Below are positions 28,472 through 44,108 of a stretch of 64,000 nt of DNA, piece by piece (position 1 is the first letter of the stretch; every line of letters starts with the position of its first letter). The notes beneath the pieces are model-generated. The model was not told the DNA's origin, ran no database searches, and was given only the letters and a program-made list of their open reading frames with translations. Origin of the DNA: Candidatus Coatesiibacteriota bacterium (GTDB taxonomy: Bacteria > RBG-13-66-14 > B26-G2 > JAUVZD01); assembly GCA_030602715.1 (NCBI GenBank), contig JAUVZD010000001.1, forward strand, positions 372,001 to 436,000, given 5' to 3'. Position numbers and translations under genes: made by a program.

Positions 28472-28976
28472 CGCTTCGACTGGGGAGACAAGAACGTATC
28501 CGCCGCTTCGATGGAGTATTATCTGGTCGGCGGTAAATCTCTGTCCGGACCTTTCGAGGGCGAAGATTGTATCCCCTTCAAACAGTCCTCTTATCCACAA
28601 ACACACTGTTATCAAAGGGATTCTCCGAAGTGTAGCCCATCTTTCTAAAGTGCTCCCGACGGTGCTCTATCAGCTTCCTGCGCCCCATCTTCATCAGGGG
28701 CTTGAGATGCCCCAGGATTGCTTCCTTCAGCGCCTTTGCTGAAGCCTCATAGTCGGTATGAGCTCCGCCCAGCGGCTCCTGAACCACCTCATCCACCACC
28801 CCCAGCTTGAACAGGTCCCGGGCGGTAATCCTGAGTATTCGCGAGCTCTCCGGGGCTTCCGCCCTATCCCGCCACAGTATGGCGGCGCAACCCTCAGGGG
28901 ATATGACCGAATAGTAGGCGTTTGAAAGTATCAGCACCACATTGCCGACGCCGATGCCCAAAGCCCCCCCACTTCC
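28472..28976. repeat. Direct repeat, distal copy (accA 3' end plus downstream flank)
   Basis: About 500 bases that recur at 30841-31346 with only about 16-20 differences by eye. It spans the last third of accA and roughly 105 bases beyond its stop codon. To the left lies the ruvX fragment; to the right the match ends abruptly within an accA codon run (GGALGIGV). Confidence 0.85.
28578..28976 (-). pseudogene. accA 3'-end fragment (about 130 codons)
   Basis: Encodes the C-terminal part of the carboxyltransferase alpha subunit from GGALGIGVGNVVLILSNAYY to FDNSVFVDKRTV, nearly identical to the end of the intact accA at 30947. No frame damage is seen, but the N-terminal two thirds are absent and the fragment is joined to unrelated sequence (MAFRRLLFAPQQ frame). 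Confidence 0.85.
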
Positions 28977-29097
28977 CGGACGGTCTTCGCCGGCGGGTTG
29001 AACTTGTTGCGGAGCGAAAAGAAGACGGCGGAAAGCCAAAAACCGACCTTGCCGTCTCTTTTGGCCATAAGCAACCCGGGGATTCAGTTGTTAATTT

Positions 29098-30850: not shown

Positions 30851-31346
30851 GGGGAGACAAGAACGTATCCGCCGCTTCGATTGAGTATTATCTGGTCGGC
30901 GGTAAATCTCTGTCCGGACCTTTCAAGGCCGAAGATTGTATCCCCTTCAAACAGTCCTCGTATCCACAAACACACTGTTATCAAAGGGATTCTCCGAGGT
31001 GTATCCCATCTTTCTAAAGTGTTCCCGGCGGTGCTCTATCAGCTTCCTGCGCCCCATCTTCATCAGGGGCTTGAGATGCCCCAGGATTGCTTCCTTCAGC
31101 GCCTTTGCTGAAGCCTCATAGTCGGTATGAGCTCCGCCCAGCGGCTCCTGCACCACCTCATCCACCACCCCCAGCTTTAACAGGTCCCGGGCGGTAATCC
31201 TGAGTATTCGCGAGCTTTCCGGGGCTTCCGCCCTATCCCGCCACAGTATGGCGGCGCAACCCTCAGGGGATATGACCGAATAGTAGGCGTTTGAAAGTAT
31301 CAGCACCACATTGCCGACGCCGATTCCCAAAGCTCCCCCGCTTCCC
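30841..31346. repeat. Direct repeat, proximal copy (in intact accA)
   Basis: Partner of 28472-28976 in the same orientation. It includes the real 3' end of accA and the flank beyond its stop codon. Confidence 0.85.
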
Positions 31347-31948
31347 CCCTCACCGATGACATTGATGATTATGGGCACGCCCAGATTGTGCATCTCCTTG
31401 ATGTTTTTGGCTATTGCCTCCGCCTGACCCCGCTCCTCAGCCTCTATGCCGGGATATGCGCCGGCGCTGTCCAGGAAGGTGAGTATGGGGATGTTGAACT
31501 TGTCGGCGATGCGCATAATCCGAAGCGCCTTGCGAAATCCCTCGGGATGGGGAGAGCCGAAGTTACGCATCAGGTTCTCCTTGGTGGTGCGCCCCTTCTG
31601 ATGACCGACGACGCACACCGTTTGCCCGTCCAGCCGCCCGAAACCGGCGAGGATTGCCTTATCGTCGGCGAAGAGCCTGTCGCCGTGCACCTCAACGAAG
31701 TCAGTTATCATCAGCTTGACGAAGTCGTAGGTGTAGGGGCGCCGAGGATGGCGCGCCACCTGCACCCTCTGCCAGGGATCAAGATTGGAGAAAATTTCCC
31801 GGCGCAACTCGTCGGCTCTGTTCTCCAGCTCCTCTATCTTCTGGGAGAGATCCAGCCCCTCCTCCTCCATCATCTTCTTAAGCTCGGCGACCTTCTGCTC
31901 CACTTCATATATCGGTCGCTCAAAATCCAGCACCCCGAATTCCGCCAT
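30947..31948 (-). CDS. accA: Acetyl-CoA carboxylase carboxyltransferase subunit alpha
   Basis: Transfers carboxyl from carboxybiotin to acetyl-CoA in fatty acid synthesis, with AccD. The 333 aa protein is complete: FERPIYEVEQKVAEL at the start, VARHPRRPYTYDFVKLM, the oxyanion-hole region FGSPHPEGFRKALRIM, FLDSAGAYPGIEAEERGQAEAIA and VIGEGGSGGALGIGVGN. accD is not in the window. Its last 133 codons lie in the direct repeat described above. The next gene downstream is unrelated cargo, and upstream is a restriction-modification pair. Confidence 0.96.
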   Translation of the reverse strand: MAEFGVLDFERPIYEVEQKVAELKKMMEEEGLDLSQKIEELENRADELRREIFSNLDPWQRVQVARHPRRPYTYDFVKLMITDFVEVHGDRLFADDKAILAGFGRLDGQTVCVVGHQKGRTTKENLMRNFGSPHPEGFRKALRIMRIADKFNIPILTFLDSAGAYPGIEAEERGQAEAIAKNIKEMHNLGVPIIINVIGEGGSGGALGIGVGNVVLILSNAYYSVISPEGCAAILWRDRAEAPESSRILRITARDLLKLGVVDEVVQEPLGGAHTDYEASAKALKEAILGHLKPLMKMGRRKLIEHRREHFRKMGYTSENPFDNSVFVDTRTV

Positions 31949-31982: not shown

Positions 31983-32888
31983 TCAGTCGAACAGTCTTCC
32001 TTGTTTTTGAAAATCGGCGATACGCTTATCTGCCAATTGACAATATTTTTTATCTATCTCATACCCGACAAATTTTCTTTCTAATCCCAAAGCGGCAATA
32101 GCCGAAGCCCCACTGCCCATAAAAGGGTCAAGGACAACATCGCCATTGAAAGTATATAGTTGGGTCAATCTATATGGTAGCTCTATCGGAAAAGGAGCAG
32201 GATGACCAACTTTTTTCGCCGACTCCGGCTTGAAACTCCAAATGCTTTTGGTGAACTCTAGAAATTCGTCTCGGGAGATAGTATCTTTACGATCACCCAT
32301 CTTCTTCCTGGAAAAAGAACCTTTGGAGAATACCAAGATATATTCGTGGATATCTCGCAGAGTGGGATTTGAAGCCGAAAGCCAACTTCCCCACGCAGTA
32401 GAGGGACTTGAGCTCTCCGCCTTGTTCCAAATTATCTCACCCCGCATAAGAAAGCCTAAATCAAGCATATCTCGGATTATAAAAATATGGAGGGGGATAT
32501 AAGGTTTTCTCCCCAGGTTAGCTATGTTAATACACGCCCTTCCGCCGGGTACCAAAAGGCGATATACTTCCTCCCAAACCCGCTTGAGAAATTCCAGGTA
32601 TTCCTCCAAGGTCAAATCTTGGTCGTAGTCCTTTCCCACATTGTATGGGGGTGAGGTCACCATAAGATGTATACAGGAGTCTGGTAACTCATCAATTCTT
32701 TCCGATGATTTACAAAGGATTTGGTTCAGGTATTGCTGAGGGACTGGGTTTTCTACATATTCTAATTTCGTTTCTTGAGGCAATCCCTCATACAAACGGC
32801 TGGAATAAAAGGAAGAAGAGTCGTGACCTATTCTTCCCGGTGAGCCGAAAGACGAAGTGCGAGTGTTTCTTTTTTTAGACGAGGACAT
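31983..32888 (-). CDS. DNA methyltransferase of the ThaI-like system (N4-cytosine or N6-adenine, beta order)
   Basis: About 301 aa from the ATG at 32888, with AGGAGG about nine bases upstream. Motif IV TSPPYNVGKDYD comes before the SAM-binding DPFMGSGASAIAALGLERKFVGYEI, the beta-class order. SPPY favours N4-cytosine methylation. The central segments TAWGSWLSAS and KVGHPAPFPIELPYRL are shared with the methyltransferase at 42055-42861. It overlaps the endonuclease gene by 14 bases, so the two form one restriction-modification unit. Confidence 0.88.
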   Translation of the reverse strand: MSSSKKRNTRTSSFGSPGRIGHDSSSFYSSRLYEGLPQETKLEYVENPVPQQYLNQILCKSSERIDELPDSCIHLMVTSPPYNVGKDYDQDLTLEEYLEFLKRVWEEVYRLLVPGGRACINIANLGRKPYIPLHIFIIRDMLDLGFLMRGEIIWNKAESSSPSTAWGSWLSASNPTLRDIHEYILVFSKGSFSRKKMGDRKDTISRDEFLEFTKSIWSFKPESAKKVGHPAPFPIELPYRLTQLYTFNGDVVLDPFMGSGASAIAALGLERKFVGYEIDKKYCQLADKRIADFQKQGRLFD

Positions 32889-33525
32889 TGCTGTCACCCT
32901 CCTTCCAATAGTCAACCCATCTCTTATAAGGATTATATTCTATCTTTGACCTCTGCCATTGTATATAAATAGCAATGGTCTCTTTGTCTTCTGCTAATGT
33001 TTTAAGGGCTTCTCCATCGATCTCCACGCCCCTAGGATTAGTTCCCGGTTTAGGCAATTTAATATAGACATCCCTACCTATCCTGTTAAAAAGCTTCCTC
33101 TGAACTTTAAGTGGGATATAATAAAATCCCCCGCAATCATTCCAGTTGATTTGAATGAAAAGCATATCATAACTAGGGCGGTAATTCTCCCGAAAATCAC
33201 TTGCTTTCTGGATGTCAACTGTCCAAATTAACTTTACCCCGCTAAACCTAGTACTAGTAATAGTTTTTATTGCAATCGGACTACCAAACAGTCTTACATC
33301 CACCTCTGGCTCGGTTATAGGTATTTCTATATCTACATTTTCCTCGCCGAACTTATAAATTAAAAGAGCCACAACTATCCTCTCCCTTAGTGACCCAACC
33401 TCCATCCCAATCCTTCCCGCCCTTGAACTCTCAATTTCCGCCAATTGAAATAGAAAGGGCAAACGTTGTTTGATTCTATAAACAAGTTTTTCATCCTCAA
33501 ACAATTCTTTAAATTGACCTAGCAT
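32875..33525 (-). CDS. Type II restriction endonuclease, ThaI-like
   Basis: A 216 aa protein whose central region (FQLAEIESSRAGRIGMEVGS, then RERIVVALLIYKFGEENV and TEPEVDVRLFGSPIAIKTIT) resembles, from memory, the ThaI family that cuts CGCG. The possible nuclease core is D76 with K87 in a variant PD-(D/E)XK arrangement. The coupled methyltransferase downstream supports the assignment. Recognition sequence is not proven. The gene is somewhat more AT-rich than the housekeeping genes. Confidence 0.65.
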   Translation of the reverse strand: MLGQFKELFEDEKLVYRIKQRLPFLFQLAEIESSRAGRIGMEVGSLRERIVVALLIYKFGEENVDIEIPITEPEVDVRLFGSPIAIKTITSTRFSGVKLIWTVDIQKASDFRENYRPSYDMLFIQINWNDCGGFYYIPLKVQRKLFNRIGRDVYIKLPKPGTNPRGVEIDGEALKTLAEDKETIAIYIQWQRSKIEYNPYKRWVDYWKEGDSNVLV

Positions 33526-35256: not shown

Positions 35257-36216
35257 TCACCCCTCACATCCACCCCCGACCCTCATCTTTCCAACGACAT
35301 TCCTCTCCCAGAACAAACCGTCCTCGTAACCCTGAATACGCCCATCCTCCTCCGCCATCGCCAGCCGCTTCTCCGCCAGAAGACAGTATTCCAGCTCACG
35401 CTCTATGCCCACATAACGGCGACCCAGCTTCTTGGCGGTAACCGAGGTGGTGCCACTGCCCAGAAACGGGTCCAGGACCACATCGCCGGGGTTGGAGGAG
35501 GCGAGTATCACCCGGGCGAGCAATTTCTCCGGCTTCTGGGTGGGATGGTCGGTGTTCTCCGCCATTGACCAGAAGGGGACGGTCAGGTCGGTCCAGATGT
35601 TGGATGGATGGGTCAGGCGAAAGCCGCCGTCCTTCTCCCTCCGCCAGTCCTTGGGCTCACCCTCTTCGGTGGTATAGGGGGCAATCACCCTCCGCTTCAA
35701 CTTCACGTCCCGAACATTGAAAGTATAATCGTCCGAGACCGTCCCGAACCAGATGTCCTCGCAATTGTTCTTCCAGTTACTGCGAGCCCCCCTTCCCTTC
35801 TCCCGCTCCCAGGTGATGCGATTGCGGACGATGAAGTGTTTTTCCATCACCCCATAGACCGATGTGGAGGTGAACCACTCACTGCAGATATAGACCGAGG
35901 CGGTGGGCTTGAGCAAGCGAAGCATCCGGGAGAGCCAGCCCTCCATCCAGGCGGAATACTCCTCCCCGCCAAGGCGGGGTGAAAAACCGCCTCCGCCGAA
36001 TTTTTTGCTAATGTTATAGGGGGGGTCAATGAAGAGCAGGTCCACACAGGAGGAGGGCAAGAACTCCAGGGCGGAGATAGTATCCTGATGGATGGTGCGG
36101 TCTAAAATTTCTCCGAGTTCGGCTCTTTCCTTCAGGGTCAAGAGATGCCGATTAAGTTCCTCCCGCTCCTCATCGGTCAGGACGATGGTTCGGTTCCTGG
36201 GCGCCCGAGGACCCAA
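35257..36216 (-). CDS. Orphan site-specific DNA methyltransferase (probably adenine)
   Basis: A 319 aa beta-class enzyme: motif IV is IDPPYNISKKFGG, and the SAM-binding motif DPFLGSGTTSVTAKKLGRRYVGIE comes later. DPPY favours N6-adenine. MAENTDHPTQKPEKLLARVI is the usual segment between them. It ends with the tail GRIQGYEDGLFWERNV. No endonuclease gene is adjacent; the closest partner, the ThaI-like enzyme, has its own methyltransferase. It may be regulatory, or the remains of a broken restriction-modification system. Confidence 0.88.
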   Translation of the reverse strand: MGPRAPRNRTIVLTDEEREELNRHLLTLKERAELGEILDRTIHQDTISALEFLPSSCVDLLFIDPPYNISKKFGGGGFSPRLGGEEYSAWMEGWLSRMLRLLKPTASVYICSEWFTSTSVYGVMEKHFIVRNRITWEREKGRGARSNWKNNCEDIWFGTVSDDYTFNVRDVKLKRRVIAPYTTEEGEPKDWRREKDGGFRLTHPSNIWTDLTVPFWSMAENTDHPTQKPEKLLARVILASSNPGDVVLDPFLGSGTTSVTAKKLGRRYVGIERELEYCLLAEKRLAMAEEDGRIQGYEDGLFWERNVVGKMRVGGGCEG

Positions 36217-39113: not shown

Positions 39114-40394
39114 TCAGTCCCTCTCCCTCAATCCTCGCACCTCCTTCAGCTCACGGCTCATGGAGCCCAAGGGGTTCCGCGACGGGGGCACATGGTATAA
39201 CCTCAGAGGTGCGGAAAGCGAGCTCGCCCAGCAGACGGTGAACTCACCAAAGCGGTCGTTCAGCTTATCTATCGCCGAAATCAGCGCCTTGCGTTTGCGC
39301 TCTCTGGCGAAGAGGGGGCGACTCTCCCCGCCGACCGCCAACAGGCTCACGCTCACCCCCACCAGCCGCACCGCCCGATGCCTGATGCTTATGCGGGAGA
39401 GAACCCGAAGCGCAGTCCGGTATATCTCCCCTCCCTCGTCCACATAGTACTTCATGGTGGTGAAGCGGGTGACGGTCTCAAAGTCCTTGAAGCGCAGGGT
39501 CAGCGCCACCCGCCGTCCCCGGTAGCCCTTCATGCGCAGGCGCCGTCCCACCTGCTCGGAGAGACCCAGCATCACCCCCCGCACCACCGCCGGGTCATAA
39601 GTGTCTGCCCGCAGGGTGATGGAATGACCCACGCTCTTGGCGTCCTCGGGGCGATAGTAGGGCACCAGCGGAGTGTCGTCCCGCCCCTGCCCCATCAGCT
39701 TCAGCCGCTCACCGTTTATGCCGAAAATTCCCCTCAGCACCCGCACCGGGAACCGCCCCAGCTCCCCGCAGGTGTGGACGCCCCGGGCGCCGAGATGGAC
39801 GCCCAGCCTCCTGCCGATACCGGGCATCTCCTCAACTGGAAGCTCCTCCAATACCTTAGGCAAATCCTGGCGGGAAAAGACGGTGCGCCCCCTCGGCTTG
39901 ACCCAGCCGGAGGCAAGCTTTGCCATCAGCTTGTTGGGAGCCAAGCCCACCGAGCAAGGCAGTTCCAGCTCCCTGCTCACCGCAGAGAAGACCTCCTCCG
40001 CCAGTGCGGTTGCGCCCTTCCTCCCCCCGCCCCGCTCCGCCACCGCCCGGCTCGCCTCCAGATAGAGCTCGTCTATGGAGGCGACCTCCACCTCCGGTCC
40101 GAAGCGCTCCAGCAGCGCCAGCAGGCGGGAGAGGGTGGAGATGTAGCGGGCCGGGTTTCCGCAGACCACCACCAGATGGGGGCAGAGCCTCCTGGCGTCG
40201 CCTACGGGCATCCCCGCCTTGATGCCGTATTCCCGCGCCGGATAGCTGGCGGTAGCCACCACCGAGCGCCCCTTGGGGTCGCCGGTCACCACCAGGGGCT
40301 TCCCTTTCAGCGCGGGATTGACCTTCTCCTCAATGGAGGCGAAGCAGGCGTTCATATCCAGATGAAGAATCCAGCGTGGCGGTTGCTCAGACAT
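39114..40394 (-). CDS. dinB: DNA polymerase IV (Y family)
   Basis: Translesion polymerase. Catalytic residues are D13 in LHLDMNACFASIEE and D108-E109 in VASIDELYLEAS (the common form is SIDEAYLD, so the Ala-to-Leu and Asp-to-Glu variants are mild). Further landmarks: GRSVVATASYPAREYGIKAGMP, GLAPNKLMAKLAS and the helix-hairpin-helix LPVEEMPGIGRRLG. The little-finger domain is complete. The last 25 residues (PLGSMSRELKEVRGLRERD) are not typical. Its promoter shares a motif with lexA, so it is probably SOS-controlled. Confidence 0.93.
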   Translation of the reverse strand: MSEQPPRWILHLDMNACFASIEEKVNPALKGKPLVVTGDPKGRSVVATASYPAREYGIKAGMPVGDARRLCPHLVVVCGNPARYISTLSRLLALLERFGPEVEVASIDELYLEASRAVAERGGGRKGATALAEEVFSAVSRELELPCSVGLAPNKLMAKLASGWVKPRGRTVFSRQDLPKVLEELPVEEMPGIGRRLGVHLGARGVHTCGELGRFPVRVLRGIFGINGERLKLMGQGRDDTPLVPYYRPEDAKSVGHSITLRADTYDPAVVRGVMLGLSEQVGRRLRMKGYRGRRVALTLRFKDFETVTRFTTMKYYVDEGGEIYRTALRVLSRISIRHRAVRLVGVSVSLLAVGGESRPLFARERKRKALISAIDKLNDRFGEFTVCWASSLSAPLRLYHVPPSRNPLGSMSRELKEVRGLRERD

Positions 40395-40403
40395 AAGAAC
40401 CCC

Positions 40404-40429
40404 CTCCCCCCCGCCAGAGGCGGGGGAGA
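40404..40429. repeat. GC-rich hairpin of the CCCCCGCC-GGCGGGGG type
   Basis: CTCCCCC-CGCC / GGCG-GGGGAG with an AGA loop, lying in the dinB leader between promoter and start codon. Similar hairpins occur at about 60750, 62080 and 63302. Confidence 0.55.
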
Positions 40430-40435
40430 GAGGAT

Positions 40436-40464
40436 ATTATACTCTACATTTGTTGAGCTGTCAA
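40436..40464 (-). promoter_or_regulatory. dinB promoter with candidate LexA operator
   Basis: Minus-strand TTGACA (40464-40459) and TATAAT (40441-40436), a perfect consensus with 17-base spacing. The whole spacer reads GCTCAACAAATGTAGAG, which matches 14 of 17 bases of a sequence over the lexA -10 region (45183-45199). A repressor bound here would block RNA polymerase. Confidence 0.75.
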
Positions 40465-40527: not shown

Positions 40528-40608
40528 GTGTTATCTTTGTTAAAAATATTTGAAGATTTATCTAAAGAACATGATAGAATTGCTAATTGTAACTTTAGGA
40601 GAAAATGA
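40528..40608 (+). CDS. Possible 26-codon leader ORF of the EVE-nuclease operon
   Basis: GTG with GGAGG three bases upstream, encoding about 26 residues (core SLLKIFEDLSKEHDRIANCN) and ending in TGA that overlaps the ATG of the next gene as ATGA. The overlap suggests translational coupling. It could be a small regulatory peptide, a leader, or the remnant of a larger gene. Confidence 0.3.
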   Translation: MLSLLKIFEDLSKEHDRIANCNFRRK

Positions 40609-41015
40609 TGATTAAAAAACTCTCAACTTCAGATCCATATAAGTCTATGTGTAGCGATTTATATTCGTTAGGAATATTTGACAAAGTTATCAATGGACTA
40701 CTATCAATAACGGAAAAGAATGACACAGATCAAACGATAATAATTGAGAGGAAATTTACAAATAACTCTGGAATTGATATAAGTTTTGGATATTACTTCA
40801 TTCAATGCCTAAATTCCCCCTGTGAGGAAGAACATCTAAAGCATTTCCGAGGTTCTTTGGAAACCTTTGTAAAACGAAAAACAAAATGTAACTATATGGA
40901 GGTAGAACCAATTGTTATTGCTCCGGAATATAGCGATGTTGTTATTAATTTTATTGACCAATATAACAGGATACAAAGGAGAAAACCAATAAAACTATTT
41001 AGATATGGAGAATAA
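40605..41015 (+). CDS. Uncharacterised protein, first gene of the EVE-nuclease operon
   Basis: A 136 aa AT-rich gene with AGGAGAAA before the ATG. The sequence contains YSLGIFDKVINGLLSITEKN, TIIIERKFTNNSGIDISFGY and EPIVIAPEYSDVVINFIDQY; the last is a common pattern in nuclease-like or DNA-binding accessory proteins, but I recognise no family. It ends two bases before the next start. The position suggests an accessory or specificity role in the restriction-modification-like operon. Confidence 0.6.
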   Translation: MMIKKLSTSDPYKSMCSDLYSLGIFDKVINGLLSITEKNDTDQTIIIERKFTNNSGIDISFGYYFIQCLNSPCEEEHLKHFRGSLETFVKRKTKCNYMEVEPIVIAPEYSDVVINFIDQYNRIQRRKPIKLFRYGE

Positions 41016-41017
41016 CT

Positions 41018-42055
41018 ATGGGTTCCTTCATTTGTGCCATTTCAGAAAGAGACTGGAAAATATCAAGAATTAAAGGTATTTATGGCAATAAAATGGGTAA
41101 ACTTAGTAGAGATGGGTCATACCGTGAATTTCCACTTACAACAAAATACTCTATTATAAGGGACCTTGTTGGAATGCAAAAAGGAGACAAGATCTTTTTT
41201 CATGTTATAGGCGATAGCAGCGTCCATGGTATCTACATTGTTCGTGAGGAACCCTTTTATGACACTTCAAAAATTTGGAAGGATGACCACGAAATATTTC
41301 CATATCGATTTCTCTTCAAGCCTCACCCTAAATACAAACATCTTTGCAAACAAGATGCGAGTATTTCAGTTATTGATTTCTATGAAGTAATCGAACAGCG
41401 TATTATTTGGTCTTTGGCCACTCTTGAAAACGAAAGGAATATTGAAGCGCGTAGCGTTCGTAAAATTGAAGACGGGAAAGAGACAAAGGAGATCCTGAAG
41501 CTTCTTCATAGAGATTTCATCATTAACCGAATTAGCACTAATATCAAATTTTTTCCTATTAAATTACCCACCAATGCTAAACCCCTCAGAGATTGCATTC
41601 AAGATATTGGTCGATTTGAGAATTCCATCAAAGCATTGTTTATGTATAAAATTGGGCAAAATGAACCATCTATTGTCAATATTTTTGGAGCAGTATCTGA
41701 CTTTATGAATGAAGTATTTATTGCCCAAACTACTAGAAAAAGCATCGACATCCTTTGCATTCAAAATAATAAACCTAATTCAAGAAGATATATCATTTGC
41801 GAGTTTAAAACTGACAAATGCGATATAAAAAGCCTTAGTCAGCTCCTTTATTATACGGATCTGTTTAAAAGAAGGGATTTTGTAGACATAGCTAATGATG
41901 TAATATTTGGGTGCCTGATCGGTAAGCGTTTTGATCCTGAAGTCATAGAATTTTCCAAGAAAAGAAATTCTTATGGCATAAACGGTAGTATTTTCCTAAT
42001 TGAATATACACCAATTGAAAAAGGAACGGATGCAGCTTTCAGGAGGATAGCCTAA
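41018..42055 (+). CDS. Putative EVE-domain / PD-(D/E)XK nuclease fusion
   Basis: A 345 aa protein. Residues 1-125 look like an EVE/PUA-type domain, the fold that reads modified bases: FICAISERDWKISRIKGIYG, MQKGDKIFFHVIGDSSVHGI, FYDTSKIWKDDHEIFPYRFL. Residues 200-310 look like a PD-(D/E)XK or NucS/DUF91-like nuclease core, with E232, D244 (SIDILCIQN) and E262-x-K264 (YIICEFKTDK), then the helix SLSQLLYYTDLF. Together this suggests a nuclease that senses base modification or sequence. The stop codon overlaps the start of the methyltransferase gene. Family calls are from motif recognition only. Confidence 0.65.
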   Translation: MGSFICAISERDWKISRIKGIYGNKMGKLSRDGSYREFPLTTKYSIIRDLVGMQKGDKIFFHVIGDSSVHGIYIVREEPFYDTSKIWKDDHEIFPYRFLFKPHPKYKHLCKQDASISVIDFYEVIEQRIIWSLATLENERNIEARSVRKIEDGKETKEILKLLHRDFIINRISTNIKFFPIKLPTNAKPLRDCIQDIGRFENSIKALFMYKIGQNEPSIVNIFGAVSDFMNEVFIAQTTRKSIDILCIQNNKPNSRRYIICEFKTDKCDIKSLSQLLYYTDLFKRRDFVDIANDVIFGCLIGKRFDPEVIEFSKKRNSYGINGSIFLIEYTPIEKGTDAAFRRIA

Positions 42056-42861
42056 TGCAGAGATTAGGACCTGATAAGGTTTATTTCAAAGAAGGTTCAA
42101 TCGTAATTTACAACGATGACTTTCTAAGTACAAAGTGCATAGATAAAGGTTGCATTGATTTGATTGTAACTTCCCCTCCTTACAATGTAGATATAAAGTA
42201 TGGTTCATATAGCGATGAAATTCCCTATAAAGATTATTTAAAATTTACTTCAGATTGGCTTACCAAATGCTTTCAATTGTCAAAGGATGACGGAAGGTTT
42301 TGCCTAAACATACCATTAGATAAAAACAAAGGAGGACAGCAAAGTGTATGCGCTGATATAACAACAATAGCAAAAAAGGTTGGATGGAAATATCACTCTA
42401 CAATAATTTGGAATGAACAAAACATCTCAAGGAGGACTGCATGGGGTTCTTGGCTTAGTGCCTCAGCTCCCTATGTAATAGCCCCCGTTGAAGTAATCGT
42501 AATACTATATAAAAAGAACTGGAAAAAAACCAGTGGGACCAAACTGTCTGATATCACAAAAGAGGAATTTGTTGAGTATACAAATGGAGTTTGGAATTTT
42601 AGTGGAGAGAGTAGGAAAAAAATAGGACATCCAGCACCATATCCCATAGAATTACCAAGAAGATGTATAAAGTTATTCAGCTACACCGGTGATACAATTC
42701 TTGATCCCTTTCTTGGAAGTGGAACAACTCTTATTGCTTGTTTGAACACAAAAAGAAAAGGAATTGGTATAGAAATAGATAAAAAATATTGTGAACTGGC
42801 TAAACAAAGACTTATCGCAGAAGGAAAAGTTTTTCAGTTAAGACTTGAATCTACCAAATAG
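42055..42861 (+). CDS. DNA methyltransferase of the EVE-nuclease operon
   Basis: A 268 aa beta-class enzyme with TSPPYN at 39-44 and DPFLGSGTT at 217-225. SPPY points to N4-cytosine. It shares TAWGSWLSAS and KKIGHPAPYPIELPRR with the methyltransferase of the ThaI-like pair at 31983, so the two may have related targets. The start overlaps the nuclease stop by one base (TAATG). It is AT-rich like the rest of the operon and has no target-recognition domain of notable size. Confidence 0.88.
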   Translation: MQRLGPDKVYFKEGSIVIYNDDFLSTKCIDKGCIDLIVTSPPYNVDIKYGSYSDEIPYKDYLKFTSDWLTKCFQLSKDDGRFCLNIPLDKNKGGQQSVCADITTIAKKVGWKYHSTIIWNEQNISRRTAWGSWLSASAPYVIAPVEVIVILYKKNWKKTSGTKLSDITKEEFVEYTNGVWNFSGESRKKIGHPAPYPIELPRRCIKLFSYTGDTILDPFLGSGTTLIACLNTKRKGIGIEIDKKYCELAKQRLIAEGKVFQLRLESTK

Positions 42862-42876
42862 TCTAATACCCCCCCC

Positions 42877-44049
42877 TCACTCCCCCACCACTGACATAAA
42901 GTCGGCGTCCTTCCACAAGCTCACGAAGGCTAAGTCCACACTCGCGTTCGCCAAAAACCCGGGGTCTAGCGCACCGGCTTGTTCAAGATACCACAGGGCG
43001 GTCTCCTTGCAATCCTGCACCGCACATATCTGCGCCGCCCAGTAATAGACCTGGGGGATGTCGTCCTTCAGCTCAATAATCCGCTCCATAGTGGTGAGCG
43101 CCTGGTCGTATTTTCGCAGGTTGATGAGCGACGCCGCCAGATTATAATGGGCCTCCACATTGCCCGGCTCCTCCTCTATCGCCCGCTGGAAATAACCCTC
43201 CGCCTCTCCGTCCCTGCCCAACCGGGCAAGGGCAAAGCCCAAAGCCACCCACAAGTCTATGTCCTCATAGCCCTCAACGGATGCCCGCTCAAAGGCTTCC
43301 AACGCCTCATCATACCGCCCGGCCTGGGTGAGGGACCAGCCCTCCCAGAATAGCTCCTGCGGTCCCCCTTCGCCGAATGTCTTTGCGGTCTCCAGAGCGG
43401 ACATCCCCCCGTAGGTATCCCCCAGGTTCATACGAGCCCGAGCCAGACCGAACCAGCCGTCGCCGTCGTGGGGCTCAAAGACCAGATAGCGCTCAAATGC
43501 CGATTCTGCTTCCTCGTCCAAGCCGGCGGAGAGCGCCGTCTCCGCCTTCAGCTTCCAGGCGTCGGGGTTGTCCCCCTCAATGGAGAGAAGCGCCGCCAGG
43601 TCGTCAAAGCAATCCTGGTAATATCCCAACTTACTGTTGAAGAACGCCCGATAGTAGAGCCCCAGAGGATAATCCGGCACCAGGTTCAGGGCGATATCCA
43701 GCTCATCCAGAGCCTCACTCACCTCTCCCAGGTGGAAGAGGGCAAAAGCTATATGGGCGTGGATCTCCGCCATCTTGCCCTCGGGGGCATAGATGACCGC
43801 TGTATCCAGACTGTCCAGAGCCTCCTGGAACCGTTTCAGGGAGTTCAGGGCGGCGCCCTTGTTAAAATACGGCGCCCAGTAGTCCGGGGCGATGTGGATT
43901 GCATGGTCGTAGGCTTCAATTGCGGTCTCAAAGCCACCGCTGGAAGCCATGAAGAGCCCGTAGCGATTGAACTCCTCGGCGTCCCTGTTGACCGCAAAGG
44001 AGACGGTCGCCGAAAGCAGAACTAAAAACATAAAGGCGACAACTCTCAC
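42877..44049 (-). CDS. Exported TPR-repeat protein
   Basis: About 390 aa from the GTG at 44049, preceded by GGAGGG; in-frame ATG at 44061 and TTG at 44070 are alternatives. Signal peptide MRVVAFMFLVLLSATVSFA, then roughly nine TPRs, for example APYFNKGAALNSLKRFQEALDSLDTAV and VEAHYNLAASLINLRKYDQALTTMERI. Probably a periplasmic scaffold; the partner is unknown. A promoter-like TTGAAT-17-TATAAT lies immediately upstream and would give a very short leader. Confidence 0.85.
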   Translation of the reverse strand: MRVVAFMFLVLLSATVSFAVNRDAEEFNRYGLFMASSGGFETAIEAYDHAIHIAPDYWAPYFNKGAALNSLKRFQEALDSLDTAVIYAPEGKMAEIHAHIAFALFHLGEVSEALDELDIALNLVPDYPLGLYYRAFFNSKLGYYQDCFDDLAALLSIEGDNPDAWKLKAETALSAGLDEEAESAFERYLVFEPHDGDGWFGLARARMNLGDTYGGMSALETAKTFGEGGPQELFWEGWSLTQAGRYDEALEAFERASVEGYEDIDLWVALGFALARLGRDGEAEGYFQRAIEEEPGNVEAHYNLAASLINLRKYDQALTTMERIIELKDDIPQVYYWAAQICAVQDCKETALWYLEQAGALDPGFLANASVDLAFVSLWKDADFMSVVGE

Positions 44050-44108
44050 ATTACCCTCCATTATAAGCAATGATTATACCATATTCAATTGCACAGTATT
44101 ATAAAAAA

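Follow-up and report, generated by a model that had tools for sequence, protein, structure and literature searches.

What kind of system is encoded by a compact AT-rich operon that joins a DNA methyltransferase to a putative EVE-nuclease fusion, and does its nuclease act on DNA that carries a modified base or on DNA that lacks one? EVE domains are generally treated as modified-base readers, and EVE-nucleases as type IV enzymes. The operon lies in a 64,000-nucleotide stretch of a Candidatus Coatesiibacteriota genome (hereafter the window), where three plus-strand ORFs, A (40605..41015, 136 aa), B (41018..42055, 345 aa) and C (42055..42861, 268 aa), follow one another with a gap of 2 bases between A and B and an overlap of 1 base between the stop of B and the start of C. 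The block is flanked by minus-strand genes, a dinB-type gene (39114-40394) and a TPR gene (42877-44070). Its GC content of 33.9% is the lowest of any equally long segment of the 64 kb, for which the mean is 53.0% and the sd 4.5, and GC3 is 0.26-0.31 in A, B and C versus 0.73-0.82 in the flanking genes. The initial annotation, which described three coupled, AT-rich plus-strand genes between minus-strand genes, thus agrees with these data, and the block is most likely a recent horizontal import; mobile-element terminal repeats were looked for around it and not found. A possible 26-aa leader ORF (40528..40608, plus strand, GTG start, TGA stop, ATGA overlap with A) exists mechanically as an open frame, but in the sole nearby plus-strand promoter-like match the -10 box falls after the GTG, inside the ORF, and the ORF is therefore unsupported. 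On the minus strand, the dinB-type gene has a perfect consensus sigma-70 promoter (TTGACA-17-TATAAT, within 40394-40464), and directly 3′ of it a 17-bp GC-rich hairpin lies over the start region of the gene.

The C-terminal part of B (about aa 197-345; 41606..42052, plus strand) is a NucS-like PD-(D/E)XK domain; B is predicted to be a restriction endonuclease. Pfam NucS_C matches aa 238-308 weakly (21.1 bits, slightly below the cut-off of 24), and a profile built from five family members also matches NucS weakly, with the NucS ELK motif aligned on E262-F-K264 of B. In the AlphaFold2 model, where pLDDT of residues 200-345 is mostly 54-89 with a low-confidence stretch at 228-242, VIA-align superimposed this domain on EndoMS/NucS with Z 11.4 and an rmsd of 2.4 Å over 109 residues, outscoring the subsequent matches. 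VIA-align matches were restricted to the nuclease domain, and Foldseek with the B model gave no match below E 0.001. E201, N231, D244, E262 and K264 are invariant in all 22 aligned sequences, and Q275 and Y279, which correspond to the QxxxY feature of NucS, are near-invariant. A nuclease core containing E232, D244, E262 and K264 had been proposed for B; both VIA-align and the 22-sequence alignment place D244, E262 and K264 in such a core, but E232 had to be given up as a catalytic residue, being E in only 14 of the 22 sequences. The invariant E201, in the first helix, is judged from the alignment the better candidate for the fourth acidic residue, and with this assignment the endonuclease catalytic residues (E201, D244, E262, K264) are intact in B. 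PADLOC restriction endonuclease models match the EVE-nuclease family of B at most weakly.

No Pfam match at E<1 was obtained on B for the NucS N-terminal DNA-binding domain, and the matches in this half of the protein are to EVE. This EVE-like region of the PUA superfamily (about aa 1-152; 41018..41473, plus strand) has conserved GD (56-57), G71, R97 and W131. Pfam EVE (PF01878) matches aa 53-151 weakly, with 16.7 bits for the window protein and 22.4 for its relative at locus L015 against a cut-off of 23, and the relative at L071 passes this cut-off with 23.7 bits. The five-member family profile matches two EVE proteins of solved structure, PH1033 (E=7e-7) and MJECL36 (E=2e-6). These matches support the proposed EVE-nuclease fusion. 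In the AlphaFold2 model, computed from an input alignment of 3 sequences, pLDDT stays below 50 across almost the whole of residues 1-199, the EVE part included. By sequence mapping, the position adjacent to the expected base pocket is occupied by Y (Y22) in the window protein, L015, L113 and L114, by W in L011, L016, L109 and L110, by L in L017, and by A or V in a clade whose members are paired with methyltransferases bearing an HPPY motif. This pattern hints at a difference in what the EVE-like region reads, and we treat it as a lead rather than evidence.

The third gene was correctly recognized as a DNA methyltransferase. C matches Pfam N6_N4_Mtase (E=3e-48) and PADLOC MTase_II (E=1.6e-96), and both motifs are intact in the beta order, motif IV (TSPPYN) preceding motif I (DPFLGSGTT). 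Motif IV of the SPPY form typically belongs to N4-cytosine enzymes; C is a beta-type DNA methyltransferase that probably makes N4-methylcytosine. According to Pfam it consists of the methyltransferase domain alone, with no reader domain fused. Its best plasmid match, a Calditerrivibrio methyltransferase (63%), adjoins an HNH endonuclease, and methyltransferases of the C type therefore pair with differing endonucleases.

Family searches with A gave no match, and the initial annotation assigned the first gene to no recognized family; A is nevertheless not an unrelated protein, since its C-terminal half resembles a degenerate copy of the B nuclease domain. Residues 51-135 of A align with the post-catalytic half of nuclease domains from the lineage of B (hhalign score 40.9, E 1.2e-5), where the top score among 100 column shuffles used as a control was 18.4. 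HMMER searches were consistent with this, since the B profile matched the A protein of L015 (E=3e-4 and 5e-5) and the A profile matched the L114 nuclease. Against nucleases of the HPPY clade, the profile score of A was not above shuffles, and the link of A is therefore to B's own lineage; this absence of a match would fit an origin of A by duplication inside the lineage of the window. In A, the nuclease ELK is replaced by FIQ or a comparable stretch and the ExK motif is lost, because of which A looks like a catalytically dead nuclease-type partner. The AlphaFold2 model of A alone was uninformative (pLDDT 43), so the fold of A rests on profile similarity.

Relatives of A and B were detectable through profiles; single-protein scans with A or B returned none from viral contigs, from phage and plasmid sequences or from genome contigs, and neither profiles nor the L011 protein revealed a relative in viruses or phages. 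The complete set of A, B and C occurs at 2 loci only, the window and L015. The latter belongs to a distant bacterium with a genome of about 0.7 Mb and carries all three genes in the order C-A-B, with identities to the window of 35% (A), 60% (B) and 72% (C); since all three are conserved there, A, B and C are more than chance ORFs. A is directly upstream of B at both loci, and the L015 module lies directly downstream of a tRNA-like sequence identified by eye.

For the nuclease family as a whole, gene context was counted at 21 loci, comprising the window and L015, 11 HPPY-paired loci, L115, and 7 loci without a methyltransferase of their own. In the HPPY clade (L038, L069-L072, L097-L100, L111 and L112), 11 of 11 loci have a different methyltransferase directly upstream of an intact, full-length nuclease, overlapping it or within about 20 bases of it, and motif I and HPPY, in this order, are intact in all 11. 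L115 has yet another methyltransferase upstream. The 7 loci without one are L011, L016, L017, L109, L110, L113 and L114, of which L016 and L113 are near a contig end and could have one downstream. A methyltransferase is thus next door to the nuclease in 14 of 21 loci, and the suggestion of the initial annotation that such pairing is unusual does not stand for this family.

Two further loci carry damaged operons. In L037, methyltransferase and nuclease are both decayed, and in G067 an operon of the L072 type is broken, with a truncated methyltransferase (50% identical) and a nuclease reduced to its C-terminal 211 aa (61% identical). This broken operon is interrupted by the L011 nuclease, forming a mosaic (L012 6707-9382, G067:C19) that includes a 106-aa ORF of unrecognized family. 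L011 was considered as a methyltransferase-paired locus and rejected, because it sits within the remains of another EVE-nuclease operon, and it was counted among the loci without a cognate methyltransferase. The surrounding defence island (L012 129-6620), inspected by eye, contains a methyltransferase, a BglII-like 188-aa protein, and EVE-like and TIR/SEFIR-like proteins. In L110 (3888-9000), the EVE-nuclease, which has no methyltransferase, overlaps with the last part of an S9 peptidase gene; UbiD and a sugar-isomerase-like gene belong to the same operon-like row, and the setting is odd for a defence nuclease.

In the IQ-TREE phylogeny of the nucleases, the 11 HPPY-paired members form one group (99/97), while the window and L015 (100/100) join the methyltransferase-free L113 and L114 (98/99). 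These four fall with the other methyltransferase-free nucleases in a set of nine rows (95/96). The fewest partner changes on the tree are 3, which is the minimum possible with four states; without a placed root, gain and loss of partners are only partly separable, and L115 and L017 are placed insecurely owing to a long branch and odd composition. The order of motifs is SPPY then FxGxG in the methyltransferases of the window and L015, and FxGxG then HPPY in the HPPY clade. Because this order differs, the two types are not one inherited partner, and the data suggest that one nuclease family recruited two unrelated methyltransferase types separately. Since no methyltransferase was found near the closest relatives, L113 and L114, the nuclease fold itself does not require one.

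We favor, with a probability of about 0.58, the reading that A-B-C, a horizontal acquisition, works as a type II-like restriction-modification system: C would protect the host, and B, probably together with A, would cut unprotected DNA. C would methylate a presumed short target sequence in host DNA, probably to N4-methylcytosine; the EVE/PUA-type domain of B would contact DNA, probably flipping and inspecting a base; and the NucS-like domain would then cut DNA without the mark of C, if the mark acts in the direction we suppose. A would serve as a non-catalytic partner of B, for example as the second half of a predicted A-B heterodimer. This reading is favored because intact methyltransferases are repeatedly and tightly coupled to the nuclease, the endonuclease-adjacent methyltransferase being kept as a pair in the window, in L015 and in 11 of 11 HPPY-clade loci, and because the two decay together when the methyltransferase breaks. 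A nuclease that is toxic in the absence of its methyltransferase would leave just this association of a broken methyltransferase with a broken nuclease, as in L037 and G067. The conserved three-gene module in L015, the invariant catalytic residues of B, the similarity of A to the nuclease and the joining of two methyltransferase motif orders to one nuclease family count in favor of this reading as well. Against it stand the modified-cytosine specificity of the EVE domains characterized so far, the prediction of EVE-PD(D/E)XK proteins as type IV enzymes, the methyltransferase-free state of L113 and L114, the restriction of the A+B+C set to 2 loci, and the low model confidence over the EVE region. 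A more specific proposal, which we hold tentatively and below even odds, is that an EVE-type reader was converted to sense an absent methyl mark, separately in two branches with unrelated methyltransferases, and that in the window branch the nuclease works as a heteromer with A, a dead copy of its own catalytic domain.

The strongest competitor, which we nevertheless consider rather unlikely, is a modification-dependent, type IV-like system in which the EVE domain of B reads modified phage bases, while the mark of C either keeps host sites safe or widens the reach of the system, a role proposed for the methyltransferase in pairs of a DCD-methyltransferase with a nuclease. EVE-PD(D/E)XK is a predicted type IV architecture, and pairs of a DCD-methyltransferase with a PD(D/E)XK protein are described (PMC7641849). 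It also agrees with this explanation that 7 relatives, the nearest ones included, have no methyltransferase of their own, and that the window lineage keeps an aromatic residue at Y22, where most methyltransferase-free relatives have W or Y and the HPPY-paired clade has A or V, although this pocket mapping is based on sequence alone. A type IV enzyme has no cognate methyltransferase and needs no adjacent one, yet C is coupled to B in the window and L015, a methyltransferase is tightly coupled in all HPPY-clade loci as well, and methyltransferase and nuclease co-decay. A role in repair, with a NucS/EndoMS-like nuclease and a methyltransferase mending lesions or mismatches from methylated-base deamination, as Vsr does with m5C methyltransferases, appears improbable. 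EndoMS/NucS is the best structural match of the nuclease domain (Z 11.4), and QxxxY (Q275/Y279) is common to both, but B has an EVE-like region in place of the NucS N-terminal domain, and the family is rare, patchy and AT-rich, unlike housekeeping repair. Moreover, the likely product of C is N4-methylcytosine, which is not a classic mutagenic base. Least credible of all is that B attacks DNA bearing C's own methylation, as a self-destruct or copy-control device. EVE domains do bind modified cytosine and C makes a modified base, but B and C are co-transcribed, so that the host chromosome would be destroyed unless B were restrained; no inhibitor is present except possibly A, and no precedent was found.

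As a small, horizontally moved operon of the restriction-modification type, A-B-C is ordinary; it is unusual in its endonuclease. R.BspD6I, a heterodimeric type IIS enzyme with a large and a small subunit, both among the structural matches of B, would offer a model for two unlike nuclease-type subunits acting together. Both subunits of R.BspD6I are catalytic, whereas A has no ExK motif and the A-B pairing is predicted only. NucS/EndoMS shares with B the nuclease fold and the ExK and QxxxY motifs, but has the NucS DNA-binding N-terminus where B has an EVE-like region and a methyltransferase operon. The ThaI-type system in the window has a methyltransferase 44% identical to C and an endonuclease unrelated to B. 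In DCD-methyltransferase + PD(D/E)XK pairs the reader is fused to the methyltransferase, whereas here it is fused to the nuclease.

EVE-PD(D/E)XK proteins were predicted as type IV enzymes by Bell, Wolf and Koonin (2020, PMC7641849). They resemble B in the fusion of EVE to PD-(D/E)XK, fast evolution and a defence setting, but are described there as modification-dependent and, in the text covered, without a methyltransferase partner, where A-B-C keeps both an adjacent type II-like methyltransferase and a nuclease-like small protein; within the literature covered, the EVE-nuclease family of B is known solely as this predicted type IV architecture. Characterized EVE domains read modified, not unmodified, cytosines (PMC7897488). 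VcaM4I (EVE-HNH, PMC7897488) has, like B, an N-terminal EVE and a C-terminal nuclease, and its base-flipping EVE provides a working model; it differs in having HNH rather than PD-(D/E)XK and no methyltransferase, and its pocket P24/W82/Y130 is tentatively, by sequence mapping, not kept in B. Type IV-like machinery acting on unmodified DNA under methyltransferase protection is known from LlaJI, which differs from A-B-C in being an NTP-dependent McrBC-type system with a B3 reader and two methyltransferases, A-B-C having no NTPase (PMC12707154). In the partial literature covered, from which REBASE was absent, no paper described an EVE-nuclease paired with its own methyltransferase. By genome context and phylogeny, one family spans methyltransferase-free members, a branch always paired with the HPPY type, and the window branch, which groups with the methyltransferase-free members but has another methyltransferase type and, in A, an additional nuclease-like subunit. 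With small proteins, one can thereby test directly how a sensor of modified bases could become a restriction enzyme sensitive to self-methylation.

Other restriction-related loci occur in the same genome, which is methyltransferase-rich, as the 13 matches to C within it indicate. A restriction-modification pair of the ThaI type in the window (31983-33525, minus strand), AT-richer than its surroundings, consists of a ThaI endonuclease (Pfam E=1e-94) and the methyltransferase that is 44% identical to C. Tetranucleotides strongly avoided in the window are GGCC, GATC, CGCG, TCGA, GTAC, CATG and CTAG, none of which assigns a site to C; CGCG, seen 77 times where 261 are expected, fits the ThaI-type system, and the avoidance of the others suggests several restriction systems, past or present. 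The gene at 35257-36216 on the minus strand, less than 7 kb from A-B-C, encodes yet another DNA methyltransferase, the third, which is of the DPPY type and has 319 aa. Elsewhere in the genome of the window, a 310-aa methyltransferase adjoins a 496-aa protein with a NucS_C match (E=3e-9; L073 4211-6635, G000:C18), forming a further candidate restriction-modification pair. Outside these systems, a 153-aa ORF in the window (28578-29039, minus strand) approximately repeats the C-terminal part of an accA-like gene 2 kb away (30947-31948, minus strand), a partial duplication.
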